Shown piece after piece: positions 3,001 through 36,045 of a DNA stretch of 64,000 nt. Every line of letters begins with the position of its first letter. Position 1 is the stretch's first letter. A program made the position numbers and the translations under genes. The notes under the pieces are model-generated. The model was not told the origin of the DNA. It did not search any database and was given only the letters and a program-made list of their open reading frames with translations. Source of the DNA: Labia minor (taxonomy: Eukaryota; Arthropoda; Insecta; Dermaptera; Spongiphoridae); the NCBI GenBank assembly GCA_963082975.1, contig OY720345.1:59998528-60062527 (forward strand). The letters run 5' to 3'.

Positions 3001-4806
3001 TAATAATGTTAAGAAGATGTTAACCCTTGCTCTATGGATAAAATTTCTTAAACTAAATTCAAAATTCAACTCTTCCAAAAAAGCATTACAAGCTAATTAA
3101 CATTAATATATAAAATTATATTAATTATTTTGACTTAATAATTATCTTTATTTTTAATTGCAAAGTTTGACACAGAATTTTGCTCAAAAATGAAATGTAC
3201 AAATATCATTCATGTTTTTTACAACCAGAAGAAATAAAAAAATAATTTAAAACTCCTAAGGCATGTAAACTTCTTAAGATATCTTATTATTATCCCCATC
3301 CTAAACTAATTTTTAAAAAAATCGCAAATATAATACGTAATAATTTTATAGTGTATTAATAATTATAACAATTTGTACATTTATTTATAATTTGTGATGA
3401 AACATATTTTAGTAAACTTTGGATGGGACTACTTTTTCTATTTACTTGTGTCTAACATTTTAGATTATAGGGATGGTCATTTATATATTATTATACTTAG
3501 AAAAATTTCAGAACTAATATATTAGCTTTGTTGATTCGTTGTTTTATTTAAGCTAATGTATGAATCAGCGGCACAATAGAATGATCGAGGCTCCTTAATT
3601 GCTAGATCCAGCTTAAAGCTTTTATCCGAGGGCGTGAATATATTGAGCTATTATTCACTTAAGTGCACCCTATTCAAAAATTGAACAACAACTAGGTTTT
3701 TTCTTCACTTATTCTTATGATTAGAATTAATATTGGTTAATTCTTACAAGACCTCTTTGGAAAGATTTTTTATTCTATTTTATTATATCTTTATTTATAT
3801 TTATAGGTTTATCTTCAATATTTAGAATAAAAGTAGAGACATTTATTTCATTATATCAAATTTTCACTTATTATCACTGTCTATTCTAAATTTCATCTAA
3901 ATCTCTAGAAATATTTTTATTTATATAAATTTGAATTTTTCAAAGGTTCAATAATAAAATATCAATGAAGGAGACACATTGAATTTATTTTTCTAAACTA
4001 ATACTTGTAAATTAATACAAAAAATTTAAAACTTGGTAATTTTTAATTAAAACACTGCGAAGTTTTCAGTTATCAATTATTTTGTTTAAAGTGAGTTATG
4101 TTGAAATAAAAGGCAGTGTATTTAAAAATCAAGATAGGAATTTATTCGTGTGTTTAGTTACAAATTAATCATAGAAGGGGCCGAAAAGAGAATGCAAAAA
4201 TCATACTCCAGCTGACTACATCTTGTCTCTTTACATGTCTGAACTACCCACTCCTCTCTGCTGACTAAGTGACCGCTCTTTTTATCCCTAATAGAGGGGA
4301 TGCGAGATGGTTCGATAATTATTAAAATTCTCAGTTCAGCATCGTCACCCACTGGATGTTCTCACGAATTTTATCTGTCGAAAGAAAATCTTATCATATT
4401 ATTCGAAAGAAGATCTATCATCTTAACTCTTAAAAATTATTCTAAAGTTTTATTTTGGTTTTAAGTTTAATTTTTGTTTGGAAAAAAACTCAATTAATAC
4501 CTCTACGGTTAAATCTAAAAATTCCATTTCTAAAAAACATAATTAAATTCTACTTTATTTAAATGTATGAAATCTTTTAGTTTTGATTTGTCAATTAAAA
4601 GAATTAAAAGAGGGAGCCTAGGATTTAAAAAAGTTATATAATTGTTTGAATATATTTCAATAATTATTAATTAATCTTTAAATTTAAAGAATTAAAAATT
4701 TGTCTATGAATAGCTAATTTTTCTATAAAATTAATTTATATTTTAAAAATTTGAAATATTTTATTAAATTAATAATAATATTCAATATTTTAATTTTATT
4801 TTATAG
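1..4806. other. Upstream sequence, probably SORL1 intron; no exon recognised
   Basis: AT-rich DNA before the first recognisable SORL1 exon. Because that exon starts in the middle of the VPS10 domain with an acceptor AG at 4805-4806, this stretch is most likely intron, with the earlier exons lying outside the window. I found no piece of VPS10 N-terminal coding sequence here. It holds one copy of the ~580-bp inverted-repeat element (1435-2015) and two GC-richer patches without a convincing ORF (about 2820-2990 and 4150-4380). A 64-codon minus-strand ORF at 4158-4352 has no recognisable motif. Confidence 0.6.
1435..2015 (+). mobile_element. Family A inverted-repeat element, copy A1
   Basis: About 580 bp. 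It begins near GTGTCTCCACTCGACTATC and ends with GGCGAGATAGTAAAA. The ends share a short imperfect inverted repeat (ACTATCTCGC / GCGAGATAGT). No coding capacity. The same order of blocks recurs in seven other places in the window on both strands: TIR, AT-rich block, CACGTCACGTG-like block, an AAGCTGAAATTCTATATATA-like block, an ACGGTCA..TTTAGAGGAAAAAAA block, a CA-rich microsatellite and the terminal TIR. I infer a non-autonomous DNA element (MITE-like). The superfamily is unknown. Confidence 0.7.
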
Positions 4807-29269: not shown

Positions 29270-30620
29270 TCTTATCTTATCTTCTTATGAGAGTAAAAAT
29301 TGTTTCTCTGTTTGTTTCTCTGTTTCTTTGTTCTCAAAAACCGCTCTAACGATTTTTTTGAAATTCACACCTGTGATAGTATTTATAAAGAAAAATTGAG
29401 TTTTATTGACCACATCTCACGAAACTTTATTAGTTCTTCTTAATTTAAATTTATAATATATGGATGACGTCACAACCACCGCATGTGAGATATATATATC
29501 TATTCTTAAAATAAAATTAAAAATATTTATATTATATTCATATATTTGATTTTTTAATTTCATTAATAGTTTTACATTTAAATTATTTGAAATTGTTTCA
29601 CACAACGTTTAAAAGAAGATTTATCTTTATATTCGATTCGATATATAGTAGGAGAATTAAATGACGTTATCAATTTATTATACTCCGGTAAATATTATAA
29701 AATATTATTTACTAAATATTCAAACAATATCAAATATTCAATTAGATAAAACATTTATTTGTTTTTGTGTTCTTATTTAAAATACATTTTAATTTAATCA
29801 GTAAATTAATTATATATATTATTATTGTAAATGTTATATCTATCTATGTGTCCCTTCATACATTTTGAATTCACCCATAATATATCTTATATTCTTATAT
29901 ACTTACTTGAATATAATTTAAAAAGTTTTAAAAGTTTTTTTTTAATATTTTATGAATTCAAATCGTCAATTGAAAATGAAAAATCCAATTATGAGATCAA
30001 TTATTCATATAATTTTAAATGTTTTCGTGTTTTATAAATAAAATATTAAAAAAATAAACTTATAAACAAAATATTCTTTGAATTATTTTGAAACATTTTA
30101 GGAAACAAATTTTTAATGGGTCATTTTTAGAAATTCCATTTAACAATTATAATAAATAATTAAAAAATTGTAAAATTTTTAAAGTATATAAAAATAAATT
30201 GTACCACTCGGGGGTACAGGGGGCGGAGCCCCCGTCCAGCTGTGAAGAGCGCCGAACGATTTTTTTGAAATTCACACCCGAGATAGTATTTATAAAGAAA
30301 AATTGAGTTTTATTGATCATATCTCACGAAACTACATTTTTATTAGTTTTGTTCTTCTAAATTTAAATGTATATATGTGACGTCACAACCACCGCCTGTG
30401 AGATATATATATCTATTCTTAAAATAAAATTAAAAATATTTATATTATATTCATATATTTGATTTTTTTTTTATTTCATTAATAGTTTTACATTTAAATT
30501 ATTTGAAATTGTTTCACACAACGTTTTGAAGATTTATCTTTATATTCGATTCGATATATAGTAGGAGAATTAAATGACGTTATCAATTTATTATACTCCG
30601 GTAATTATTATAAAATATTT
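29270..30620 (+). repeat. Composite repeat block, direct and inverted duplications
   Basis: Two diverged direct copies of a ~380-bp unit (about 29338-29720 and 30250-30620) share ACGATTTTTTTGAAATTCACA, GATATATATATCTATTCTTAA and GATATATAGTAGGAGAATTAA. Between them, 30195-30250 carries a truncated Helitron-like 3' end (GGGGGCGGAGCCCCCGTC). A TCTTATGAGAG start near 29283, with AAAACCGCTCTAACG, resembles Helitron 5' ends. I read the region as nested or duplicated Helitron pieces. Confidence 0.5.
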
Positions 30621-31184
30621 GTTTATGTTAGGAAAACATATCAAAAAAGAGAATTTACATTTTGTATGAAGGGACACAAATAATAATAATATATAATTAA
30701 TTTACTGATTAAATTAAAAAATTGTAAAATTTTTAAAGTATATAAAAATAAATTGTATAAATTGGTTAAAGGGTCGAGTGATAGTTCGGTGTCACAGGTA
30801 TATATTTTATATCAACACGCCTACTTTTCTGTTTGTATGTTATTATTTGAATGGCGATTCGGTGAATGGTTAATGGTTAATTAACGATCCATATAACATC
30901 ATCGACTGGGCCGCTACCATAAGGAGTGAAAATAGTGTCGAATAGAAATAGACGATATTACTTGGATTAATCTTATTATACTAGCTAAAATTGTTTGTTT
31001 TATAACCACTTGGGGCGCTAAACAGTTTTTCAAAAAAACACTATAGAAAAAAAAATATATGTATATATTATATATTTATGTATTATTGAGGAGCACAAGT
31101 TCATTCATTTTACTCAGATTGATGCAAATGTGTAACATTTAATAATTGTAATAAATAATTAAAGAATTGTATATCAATATTTTT
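30621..31184. repeat. Repeat debris left of the LINE
   Basis: A segment at about 30655-30720 (TGTATGAAGGGACACA and neighbours) is the inverse complement of 29785-29875. The phrase AAAGGGTCGAGTGA..GGTGTCACAGGTAT at 30770 echoes AAAGGGTAGAGCGA..GGTGTCCCAGGTAT at 31186. No ORF. Confidence 0.45.
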
Positions 31185-31523
31185 CAAAGGGTAGAGCGAA
31201 TGCCGGTGTCCCAGGTATTAATATTACCAGCCAAATCCAATAATAATGAATCATTTTTTTAACTTAAGTACCAGTACTTTTAACCAAATACGATGTACCA
31301 CTCGGGGGTACAGGGGGCGGAGCACCCGTTCAGCTGTGAAGAGCGCCGAAGGCGCTCTGACCAGCTGGTTATATATTTATGTATATATTGTGAGACATTT
31401 TATTATTACCCTAACAAAATTAATTAAAATATAAAAAAAAAAAATTTTCAATTTTTTTAATAGTTTAAACTAATTGTATTTATATTCAATATCTAATAAA
31501 TTATAAATTAAAATTATTAGATA
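31185..31523 (+). repeat. Left 339-bp direct repeat flanking the LINE (Helitron 3' end inside)
   Basis: Bases 31185-31523 match 35707-36045 over 339 positions at a constant offset of 4522. I saw no difference, and a 62-codon frame inside translates identically in both. The block includes a Helitron-like 3' end: the hairpin GAGCGCC-GAA-GGCGCTC at 31341-31357 followed 11 nt later by CTGG with T outside. The LINE lies exactly between the two copies. Confidence 0.85.
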
Positions 31524-31623
31524 ATAATAATAATAATAATAATAGCCTTTATTAGTTCTTACATGTACAAAATCATATTAAATAGTAATATAAATACAAT
31601 AATAATATTTACAAATTTATATA

Positions 31624-31657
<34 letters not shown>

Positions 31658-31662
31658 TTTTT

Positions 31663-34600
31663 TTATTTTTGTATGGAACTAGGCCCTTTTAGGGCATAGG
31701 CCTCTCCCAGTCTTTTCCATTTTGGCCTATCTCTTGCAATCTTCATCCAGTCTATTCCGACTTCTCTAATGAACTCTTTAGACCATCTATTTGGCGGTCT
31801 TCCTCGATTTCTGGTTTTATCCAATGGACACCATTCGGTAGTGATTTTTGTCCACCTATCGTTGTTCATCCTCGCCACATGTCCTGCCCATCTCCATTTC
31901 AACTTCCTTACAGCTATGTTGATATTTTCCACCTTTGTTTTCTTGTAAATATCGGTTATTCGTTGCTTATCCATCCTTCTCACACCAAGTATACTTCTTA
32001 TCATACTTCTCTGAGTGGTTTCCAATTTTGTCGATATTTTTTCTATCATCGTCCATGTTTGTGAGCCATAATTAAGTGTTGGTAAGATACACTTTTTAAA
32101 AACTTTTATTTTAGACGATATGTCTAGTTCTTTGTTTTTTAAGATAAATTTCAAGCCCCAAAACTTACCCCAAGATATTCCTATTCTTCTTGTTAATTCT
32201 TCATATGTTCTTGATTTATTAAAATTTAGTTTTTGACCCAGGTAAATTATTTCTTTTTTACATATGATGGGCGGTTCATTTTTTCCATAAGAAATATCTC
32301 TTTCGTCGCAATTTGTAATTATCACTGTTTTTTTGTTGTTGATTTTGAGGCCTATTTTTTTGCTTTCTTGATTTAATTCTCTAATCATACTTTTTATTTC
32401 CTTTTTTGAGGTCCCTATAACGACCACATCGTCAGCGAATCTTAGATTACTTAAATATCGTCCGTTCACTCTTAGGCCCCTCTTTTCCCATTTTAGTTGA
32501 CGGAACACTTCTTCTAGAGCACAGTTAAATAACAATGGTGACAATGGATCCCCTTGTCTAACGCCTCTCTCTACAGTAAAGAAAGGTCCAGGATCATCAA
32601 TAATAACTCTTGCCTGCGAATCCTCGTATATTTTTTTGATTAGGTTGGTATATCCAGTGTCCACACCTTGAGATATCATAGCGTGAAAGACACTCTCTTG
32701 ATAAACCGAGTCGAAGGCTTTCTCGTAGTCTATGAACGCTAGGTAAATTTCTATTTTATATTCAATTGATTTTTCAATTATTTGATTTAATGTGTGCAGA
32801 TGGTCGCATGTTGAATAGTTTTTTCTGAATCCGGCTTGTTCTACTGACTGCGAATTTGTAAGGATATTTTCCAATCGATTATTAATTAGTTTCATAAATA
32901 TTTTTCCGATATTCGAAGTAATTGTTATCGGTCTGTAATTTTTAATATTCTTTGGATCACCTTTTTTAAATAAGATCATTATATTGGAAGTTTTCCATTG
33001 TTTTGGTATAATTTGACTTTTAATTATATTATTAAAAATAGATGTAAGTGGCTTTTTAATTAGTTTGATTGAGAGTCTCAATATTTCATTTTTTACACCG
33101 TCTATTCCTGGGGTTTTTCCTGATTTTAAATTATTAATAACGAATTCAATTTCACTTTCAATAAATAGAGGTATATTTATATTTTCATTTGGATGGATTA
33201 AGTTGTTGTTATGTTCCCTTAATATATTAGGATTACTGTATAGTTTTTTATAAAATTTGGTTGCTATAATTTTTATTTGGGTTCTATTAAATTTTTGATT
33301 TTTATTTTCATCATTGAGACTTGGAATTAATGTAATTCCCATGGATAGTTCTTTTTTTATTTTTTTAATAGAATTATATGGTTCTATATAATTTTTTATT
33401 ATGTTATCATTATAATCTTTTAAATCTTTTTTTATGTGATATTTAACCAATTTACAAAGAATATTATGTTCGATTTTACCATTTATTGTGTTTCTTTTTA
33501 TTTTTAATTCATTTCTTTGTTTTATTAGTTTTTTTGTATTTTCAGATAACTTGTGATTTTTTTTATATAATTCTTCGGATTTATCTTGCAACATTTTTAT
33601 ATTTTTTTCAAAAATATCGTATTGATCCTGTGTTTGTTGAATATTGAAGAAATTGATATTTTTAAGTTCATTTTCTACTTTTAAAATAATTTCTGTTGTT
33701 ACATTTTGAATATTTATTATTTTCATGATTTGTTTATTGCATTTTGGATTTGGTCTTCCTAAAATTACACTCGAAGATAATTCTACCTTTATTAAACGAT
33801 GGTCGGTGAAAAATGCAAATTTGTTATCAATTTCAAATTTACGTATCAAATTCATATGAGGAGATAGAATGTAGTCAATTTCGTTTTTATAAATTCCATT
33901 TGGAGCCATCCAAGTCCACTTTCTACCTGCTCTCTTCTTATAAAATGTATTTACAATTTTTAAATTGTTTGTTTGACAGAAGTGTACCAATCTAACTCCA
34001 TTTCCATTTCTTTTTCCATAGCCATAAGGTCCGATGATCATCTTTTCTTCTTCTATTCTCTTTCCTACTTGGCTGTTGAAGTCTCCAATTAGAATTAATT
34101 TATTTTTAATATTATTACGGTATTCGTCTACAACATTGGCAAGCAAAATATAGAAGTCCTCGGTTGTTTGTTCATCAGCCTCCGCTGTTGGTGCATATAC
34201 TTGTACGATTGTTATAGTACAATTGTTTTTATAGGCAAGTTTCAAAAGTGCTATTCTATCCGAAAAACCCCTAAACTCCACAATATATTTTTTCATGCTA
34301 TTTTTTACCATGAAACCGACTCCCCGTCTTCCTCTTATCTGACCAATGTAATAAAAAATATAGCCAGATTTTCTTTGTAATATTTTTTCACCTATTCTCT
34401 TTACTTCTGACAGCCCCAAAATATCAATTTGAACACCCTCAAGAGCATTTTCAAGTTCGATTAATTTTTCCTCGTCTTTCAGGCTACGAACGTTTAATGT
34501 TGCTAGTATTATTTTTTCATATTTATTTTTATTATTTTTTTCCTTTGAATTATTTTTATTTAAGTTTCTATTTATATCTTTCTTTTTAAATGAAATCTTT

Positions 34601-34782
34601 TGTTTTAATTTATTATTTTCAGTATTATCATTAATTCTATTAAGGTTAGTATGGTCGAAAATATTATGAATTGGGAGGTTTTGGTCGGTTATGCCCGAGT
34701 TGACCAGACTTACTGGGCAGGAGTCGAGATTTTGAGTATTTTTTTCTTTCAGATGTTCTAAAGACCTAGCTCCTATGATCAT
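31663..34782 (-). CDS. LINE ORF2: APE endonuclease and reverse transcriptase
   Basis: 1039 residues. In LINEs this protein nicks target DNA and copies its own RNA onto the nick. A Lys/Asn-rich N-terminus (about 1-90) precedes an apurinic-type endonuclease: LATLNVRSL, GLSEVKR, QVYAPTAEAD, GDFNSQVG (233-240), EIDYIL and FFTDHRLI. The reverse transcriptase follows: SGKTPGIDG, YRPIT, FIDYEKAFDSV, RQGDPLSPLLF and FADD (782-785). The C-terminus has LPTLNYGSQTWT and WRWAGHVARM..GRPPNRW. All catalytic residues I can check are present. The ATG at 34782 follows the ORF1 stop by three bases (TAG GAA ATG), suggesting termination-reinitiation. Base composition matches the AT-rich surroundings. Confidence 0.95.
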   Translation of the reverse strand: MIIGARSLEHLKEKNTQNLDSCPVSLVNSGITDQNLPIHNIFDHTNLNRINDNTENNKLKQKISFKKKDINRNLNKNNSKEKNNKNKYEKIILATLNVRSLKDEEKLIELENALEGVQIDILGLSEVKRIGEKILQRKSGYIFYYIGQIRGRRGVGFMVKNSMKKYIVEFRGFSDRIALLKLAYKNNCTITIVQVYAPTAEADEQTTEDFYILLANVVDEYRNNIKNKLILIGDFNSQVGKRIEEEKMIIGPYGYGKRNGNGVRLVHFCQTNNLKIVNTFYKKRAGRKWTWMAPNGIYKNEIDYILSPHMNLIRKFEIDNKFAFFTDHRLIKVELSSSVILGRPNPKCNKQIMKIINIQNVTTEIILKVENELKNINFFNIQQTQDQYDIFEKNIKMLQDKSEELYKKNHKLSENTKKLIKQRNELKIKRNTINGKIEHNILCKLVKYHIKKDLKDYNDNIIKNYIEPYNSIKKIKKELSMGITLIPSLNDENKNQKFNRTQIKIIATKFYKKLYSNPNILREHNNNLIHPNENINIPLFIESEIEFVINNLKSGKTPGIDGVKNEILRLSIKLIKKPLTSIFNNIIKSQIIPKQWKTSNIMILFKKGDPKNIKNYRPITITSNIGKIFMKLINNRLENILTNSQSVEQAGFRKNYSTCDHLHTLNQIIEKSIEYKIEIYLAFIDYEKAFDSVYQESVFHAMISQGVDTGYTNLIKKIYEDSQARVIIDDPGPFFTVERGVRQGDPLSPLLFNCALEEVFRQLKWEKRGLRVNGRYLSNLRFADDVVVIGTSKKEIKSMIRELNQESKKIGLKINNKKTVIITNCDERDISYGKNEPPIICKKEIIYLGQKLNFNKSRTYEELTRRIGISWGKFWGLKFILKNKELDISSKIKVFKKCILPTLNYGSQTWTMIEKISTKLETTQRSMIRSILGVRRMDKQRITDIYKKTKVENINIAVRKLKWRWAGHVARMNNDRWTKITTEWCPLDKTRNRGRPPNRWSKEFIREVGIDWMKIARDRPKWKRLGEAYALKGPSSIQK

Positions 34783-34785
34783 TTC

Positions 34786-35565
34786 CTATTCATCGTCATC
34801 ACTCTCGTCAGGCTTTTGGGACCCATCACATTTCTCTATTTTATTATAAAATGATGTTATTTTGCCTTCATTTAGTCTAATTCTTTTTTCTTTATTCTCT
34901 ATTTTATCATTCAATTTATCATAAGTTGAACTATTTTTAGAATTTTCAGGAGAATTTCTTAATGCTCTTTTTTTAATATTTCTATTTTTATTCGATTCAT
35001 TATCAAATTTTTCTATAATAAGTTGATCGTATTTTAATATGGCAAATTTGCCTTCCTTCCTTGCCTTTATTAATTTAGGAATTAATTCTTTCCTTCTAGC
35101 CAATACATCTTTGGGAAAATCATCAGTAATGTAATACTTCGAATTTTTAAATTTTTTATTATTTCTGAGGATAATTTTTTTATTTCTCAAAGACAGCATG
35201 GATATTAGAACTGGTCTTGTTTTATTTTCTGAGGGGCGTCCTATGCGCTTTATAATATTAATATGTTCAATATTAATCTCATTATTGGTTTTTTCTTTAA
35301 CGATTGATATCACCTTATCCTCCAGTTCGCCAGGATGTTCCTCGTCTTCATCCAGCCCATGTAATATAATGTTTTTTAATTTATTTTCATGTTCCATTTT
35401 CCTCATTCTTTGTTCAAGTTCGACTAATCTTTTTTCAAACGTTTCGAATTTTTGTTCTACCAAAGAGAATAACTTAGTTTCAAGATGTTCATTATTCTTT
35501 TTTATTATATTTTTAATATCATCCTTCCACTCTCTTAAGAAATTCAATAATTCGGTTTTTTCCAT
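34786..35565 (-). CDS. LINE ORF1: coiled-coil, RRM-like RNA-binding protein
   Basis: 259 residues from the first ATG at 35565 (MEKTELLNFLREW); the open frame runs four codons further up only via TTG. ORF1 proteins coat LINE RNA. Seen: an N-terminal coiled-coil-like heptad region (about 10-65, rich in Leu/Glu/Lys), then NIILHGLDEDE, IKRIGRPSENKTRPVLISM and ITDDFPKDVLARRKEL, the RRM/C-terminal-domain pattern of insect ORF1 proteins found beside similar ORF2s. It ends with a Lys/Asn-rich, then acidic (DESDDDE) tail. It is intact. Confidence 0.88.
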   Translation of the reverse strand: MEKTELLNFLREWKDDIKNIIKKNNEHLETKLFSLVEQKFETFEKRLVELEQRMRKMEHENKLKNIILHGLDEDEEHPGELEDKVISIVKEKTNNEINIEHINIIKRIGRPSENKTRPVLISMLSLRNKKIILRNNKKFKNSKYYITDDFPKDVLARRKELIPKLIKARKEGKFAILKYDQLIIEKFDNESNKNRNIKKRALRNSPENSKNSSTYDKLNDKIENKEKRIRLNEGKITSFYNKIEKCDGSQKPDESDDDE

Positions 35566-35706
35566 TATTTTCCTCAAAATATTATATAAATGAGTCTCCT
35601 ACCTGACAAAGTGAGAAAAGATAAGCAGATGTCCCCACTATAAGTTTCGGCAGCTCTCTCGAAATGCGTCCGTTCAGCTTGGACTCTCGCACTCGACTCA
35701 AAAAAT

Positions 35707-36045
35707 CAAAGGGTAGAGCGAATGCCGGTGTCCCAGGTATTAATATTACCAGCCAAATCCAATAATAATGAATCATTTTTTTAACTTAAGTACCAGTACT
35801 TTTAACCAAATACGATGTACCACTCGGGGGTACAGGGGGCGGAGCACCCGTTCAGCTGTGAAGAGCGCCGAAGGCGCTCTGACCAGCTGGTTATATATTT
35901 ATGTATATATTGTGAGACATTTTATTATTACCCTAACAAAATTAATTAAAATATAAAAAAAAAAAATTTTCAATTTTTTTAATAGTTTAAACTAATTGTA
36001 TTTATATTCAATATCTAATAAATTATAAATTAAAATTATTAGATA
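35707..36045 (+). repeat. Right 339-bp direct repeat flanking the LINE
   Basis: Copy of 31185-31523. After 36045 the sequence diverges (ATCTGAGAG here, against the ATAATAATA tail of the LINE on the left). Its hairpin lies at 35863-35879 and the Helitron-like terminus CTGG ends at 35890. Its position makes it the upstream half of what looks like a very long target-site duplication. Confidence 0.85.

Follow-up and report, generated by a model that had tools for sequence, protein, structure and literature searches.

Introduction

Why does a LINE in the genome of Labia minor lie between two identical copies of several hundred base pairs of DNA? The question arises in a stretch of 64,000 nucleotides, hereafter the window, on contig C2 of the one assembly that we searched (604 Mb). 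In target-primed reverse transcription (TPRT), a target-site duplication (TSD) results when the second strand breaks downstream of the first nick, and its length is set by the distance between the two breaks (PMC2881922; PMC2666801). How the second strand is cut is still unsettled (PMC2881922).

Borders of the repeat

Direct comparison of the two blocks, 31184-31523 and 35706-36045, gives 340 bp without a mismatch. The identical flanking repeat that the first-pass annotation had put at 339 bp is therefore real, and one base longer on the left. Low-complexity runs excluded, the 64-kb window holds only three other exact direct repeats of at least 60 bp (72, 77 and 85 bp), and with so few a chance origin of the 340-bp pair is excluded.

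The LINE occupies 31524-35705 on the minus strand (4182 bp, including six extra T), and direct repeats abut both of its ends. Its (ATT)n tail (31524-31544, minus strand), which resembles the tails of sister copies, touches the repeat copy at the LINE 3' end (31184-31523). At the 5' end, read in the LINE sense, six T (35700-35705, minus strand) stand between the other repeat copy (35706-36045) and GAGTCG, the first LINE sequence common to most sister copies; they are absent from the 13 sister copies compared. Sister copies L033-L040 and L045 have a G immediately 5' of GAGTC, where the window copy has the T run; this G may be the copy of a cap-derived base.

Each repeat copy is native on its outer side only. 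On the left, the 40 bp upstream of the block are identical in all 28 of the other fetched copies of the mobile element into which this border runs, while LINE sequence takes this place beside the right block. On the right, the block runs on into what would be the original flank: a relative (L086, ~79% identity) is unbroken across 36045|36046, although it is a diverged sequence rather than an allele and covers the right border only. The empty site would thus have consisted of the left flank, one block and the right flank, the other block being the new copy.

These borders bear on the idea that the insertion first made an ordinary short TSD, which unequal recombination or gene conversion later turned into a long repeat. 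We consider this extremely unlikely, since the limits of the repeat and of the LINE agree to the base on both sides, the extra T's are kept at the 5' junction and none of the 340 positions differs. Recombination between the flanks should moreover remove the LINE instead of creating matching flanks around it.

Content of the duplicated block

A multi-copy mobile element, a putative Helitron, accounts for the first ~187 bp of the block (31184-31370); its aligned copies diverge after ...CCAGCTGGT. Among the best 40 of 1565 candidates, at least 38 further places have matches reaching block positions 186-208, and one more holds a 95-bp piece. Although 36 of the 38 long partial matches begin at block base 1, they do so because the query began there. 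The start of the block was considered as a boundary of the mobile element and rejected, as the element continues leftwards in 28/28 loci (by at least ~290-300 bp in 27 and by 171 bp in L029). The remaining ~153 bp are found at full length at only these two places in the genome (all 21 candidates scored). These last ~153 bp are treated here as host sequence. To the left of the block, segments of neighbouring repetitive DNA at 29348-29706 and 30255-30619 are 87-99% identical in blocks and spaced 907-916 bp apart. Rfam and tRNA scans of the 64-kb window found nothing.

Had the block already been a tandem duplication, a LINE entering exactly between its two units would leave the same arrangement. 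Neighbouring repetitive DNA just left of the block does show a tandem-like duplication, with a spacing of ~913 bp. This reading requires an exact strike on the junction, however, and no other place holds the block's host portion at full length. Further evidence against it comes from the other insertions described below.

The LINE

The LINE is a non-LTR retrotransposon with two open frames on the minus strand. ORF2 (31663-34782, 1039 aa) resembles human L1 ORF2p and encodes an APE-type endonuclease and a reverse transcriptase, with Pfam matches to RVT_1 (E 2e-34) and Exo_endo_phos (E 7e-07). ORF1 (34786-35577, 263 aa) has no Pfam match at E 0.001. Twelve other places in the genome are 99-100% identical to the LINE over almost its whole length.

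We place the element putatively in the RTE clade, a name that rests on its tail, its target signature and a putatively RTE-like C-terminal motif. It carries the APE endonuclease and reverse transcriptase within a single ORF, a trait also present in other clades, and it ends in a short tandem repeat, (ATT)n, with no poly(A). A T-stretch ~10 nt upstream of the insertion site, a signature described for RTE LINEs in PMC13295347, is shared by most of the sites scored (9 of 13; see below). Bov-B, an RTE-clade element, is described there with its T-stretch ~10 nt before the TSD and with a short-repeat 3' tail.

TSD lengths among sister copies

In the genome, at least 29 places have some of the LINE's 5' part; wider listings, one of them from the best 40 of 202 candidates, add more, mostly 5'-truncated. 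We examined 29 copies at both flanks, 14 in a first set and 15 in a second, preferring complete or young copies and counting as a TSD an exact repeat with a minimum length of 8 bp. Where a copy is 5'-truncated or inverted, its TSD may be overstated by a few bases that the LINE has in common with the flank, and an alternative measurement is slightly shorter for some. In the first set, 13 of the 14 were measured; the other, L035, is masked, with N beside the LINE.

A TSD was measured in 25 of the 29 copies. It is 10-16 bp long in 22 of them and far longer in three: 233 bp (L039), 340 bp (the window) and 631 bp (L034). In this family, measured at all lengths, long TSDs thus form a class apart from the 10-16 bp class. 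L060, i and j have no TSD by this measure, and L060 shows by eye a repeat of ~10 bp with one mismatch. A long TSD considered for copy a was rejected: the 82% match of its 3' flank ~570 bp upstream is an old repeat, and the exact TSD is 15 bp. The first-pass annotation had proposed this search of the genome for further LINE copies; it finds mostly short TSDs, but the 340-bp block is no common tandem repeat. To call the window's TSD extreme is fair within its own LINE family, though longer LINE TSDs have already been published.

All three long-TSD copies are full-length. Long TSDs occur in 3 of the 11 measured among 12 near-complete copies matching at 100%, against 0 of 14 others (p 0.07). The side of the first nick looks alike at long- and short-TSD sites, with a (TAT)n tail and an AT-rich start. 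TTT occurs 5-15 nt upstream, a range set post hoc, in 9 of 13 sites compared with 32% of background positions (one-sided p 0.006).

Some copies resemble one another in their truncations. Those at C1:111556309-111559460 and C1:111672340-111675406 have a common internal deletion and 5' truncation; because these are the same, one copy probably arose from the other by segmental duplication. Those at C10:64632872-64633834 and C5:13578916-13579880 both start at LINE query position 3065 and possibly represent a copied truncated form.

A second, poly(A) LINE family

A 1970-bp fragment of a poly(A) LINE with an RVT_1 match (L107, C4:32507600-32509569), which we take to be jockey-like, lies inside one copy of the window's LINE (C4:32504131-32510518). 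The same 389 bp of host LINE stand, base for base, on either side of the fragment; two of these bases (AA) could be poly(A). The duplicated stretch is present once in the window's LINE, at 387/389 identity. Since the empty site of this nested insertion is thus known to be single-copy, the 389-bp duplication arose by the insertion. In this genome, then, a LINE entering a single-copy target can leave hundreds of base pairs of it in two copies.

The poly(A) family occupies at least 40 places, as judged from the best 40 of 564 candidates. From 18 of these we took the 3' flank; one flank was a repeat and another a GT run, and the search was made with the other 16. The flanks of L116 and L125 are genome-wide repeats and uninformative, which leaves 14. 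This search, based on the best 40 of 2844 candidates, detects only TSDs of at least roughly 60-90 bp, and even long ones may be missed.

In 3 of the 14 informative flanks, a second copy of the flank lies upstream on the same strand. L112 (C1:57735315-57740960) has a 113-bp TSD, with the family's common 5' end directly after the first repeat copy. L113 (C10:57768723-57772920) has a 221-bp TSD; LINE sequence begins one base after the first repeat copy, and the LINE sequence at this junction occurs at 39 or more other places. L111 (C4:8123371-8129548) has a TSD of at least 653 bp with one mismatch, covered on the 3' side only. LINE sequence is present there from C4:8125577 onward, so its TSD is at most ~2.2 kb.

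These insertions weigh further against a pre-existing tandem repeat in the window. The nested case struck a target known to be single-copy, and equal luck would have been required for the two sister insertions with 233-bp and 631-bp TSDs and for four insertions of the second family. As the block's host portion is also unique at full length, we regard this explanation, which the first-pass annotation had also offered, as very unlikely.

A false duplication made by the assembly would also give two identical blocks. It is scarcely credible here, as six places in two families have repeat borders that match the LINE's two ends (the window, L034, L039, the nested copy, L112 and L113); L111 makes a seventh, seen on the 3' side only. 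The window also lies inside a 95-Mb contig.

Proposed mechanism

We conclude with high confidence that the 340-bp repeat is a TSD made by one LINE insertion through TPRT. The LINE endonuclease would have opened one strand at what is now 31523|31524, a T-rich site where the cDNA would be primed, and the other strand would have been broken or nicked ~340 bp away. Fill-in of this long stagger would then double the DNA between the two breaks. Such a distant second-strand break was among the explanations first proposed for the locus, and it is supported by repeat copies that are each native on one side only and by the sister TSDs of 233 and 631 bp.

In the long events, the second break is probably uncoupled from the geometry of the enzyme, and may be a chance nick or an end left by replication or repair. 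For the short class, the second cut would be made near the first; for the long class, the second break would be independent of it. The independent break may come from the LINE enzyme, from replication or from repair. Uncoupling of this kind would let TSDs of 10-16 bp occur alongside others of several hundred base pairs.

Comparison with published long TSDs

The R9 element of bdelloid rotifers reportedly has an exceptionally long LINE TSD of ~126 bp. It shares the long TSD with the present case but is rDNA-specific, whereas here lengths vary at unrelated sites.

The closest likeness to the mixture of short and long TSDs is that of ZfL2-2 in wild-type chicken DT40 cells, where 24 of 25 events had target changes of at most 20 bp and one had a 1228-bp TSD (PMC2666801). 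That was a cell-culture assay of another LINE, in contrast to the natural copies examined here. The share of long TSDs is 3/25 + 3/14 = 6/39 here and 1/25 in DT40 (Fisher p 0.23). It is not clearly above published cell-culture values.

For human L1 in cells deficient in nucleotide excision repair (NER), TSDs of hundreds of base pairs to several kilobases have been ascribed to a distal unrelated nick, and it is cells that have lost XPA, XPC or XPD that show the excess (PMC5223499). In the same paper, TSDs above 100 bp never exceeded 10% of events in HeLa cells and made up 3 of 9 events in repair-complemented cells. The long TSDs here are alike, but this genome is predicted to encode Rad4 (XPC) and XPA_C domains. 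Because one domain of each is present, gross loss of XPC or XPA is an unlikely cause of the long TSDs.

Completeness of the inserted copies is another difference. According to PMC2912911, all six full-length L1 insertions of one HeLa study had TSDs of 10-17 bp and extreme target changes went with 5' truncation, whereas the long-TSD copies of the window's LINE are full-length. Surveys may also be restricted by the TSD lengths that they accept. PMC2912911 set an upper limit of 30 bp and PMC13295347 accepted 10-49 bp only, so long TSDs would be missed in the latter.

The 340-bp case adds an instance from a natural genome to a by-product of LINE insertion that is already documented. Its interest lies in the recurrence of long TSDs in two LINE families of one genome. 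In a literature search that mostly covered titles and abstracts, with thin coverage of subscription journals, we found no report of recurrence in two LINE families, or of the two-class pattern, in one natural genome.

Significance

Long TSDs of 113 to at least 650 bp in both the ATT-repeat and the poly(A) family would point to a host factor. We suggest tentatively, as a possibility about which we remain doubtful, that in the germline of this species the second-strand step often proceeds independently of the first nick, irrespective of the LINE involved. The host factor hinted at could then be a repair protein or replication-associated nicks. Short and several-hundred-bp TSDs occur side by side in one of the two families. 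With young copies of both and a nested insertion of known empty site, the two modes can be compared here free of cell-culture artefacts.

Long TSDs duplicate the adjoining DNA, here including part of another mobile element. They may later allow loss of the LINE by recombination, as suggested for L1 (PMC5223499). If second-strand cutting is indeed often uncoupled, surveys with TSD limits of 30-49 bp would be blind to such duplications, and LINE insertion would be a steady source of small segmental duplications in this genome.
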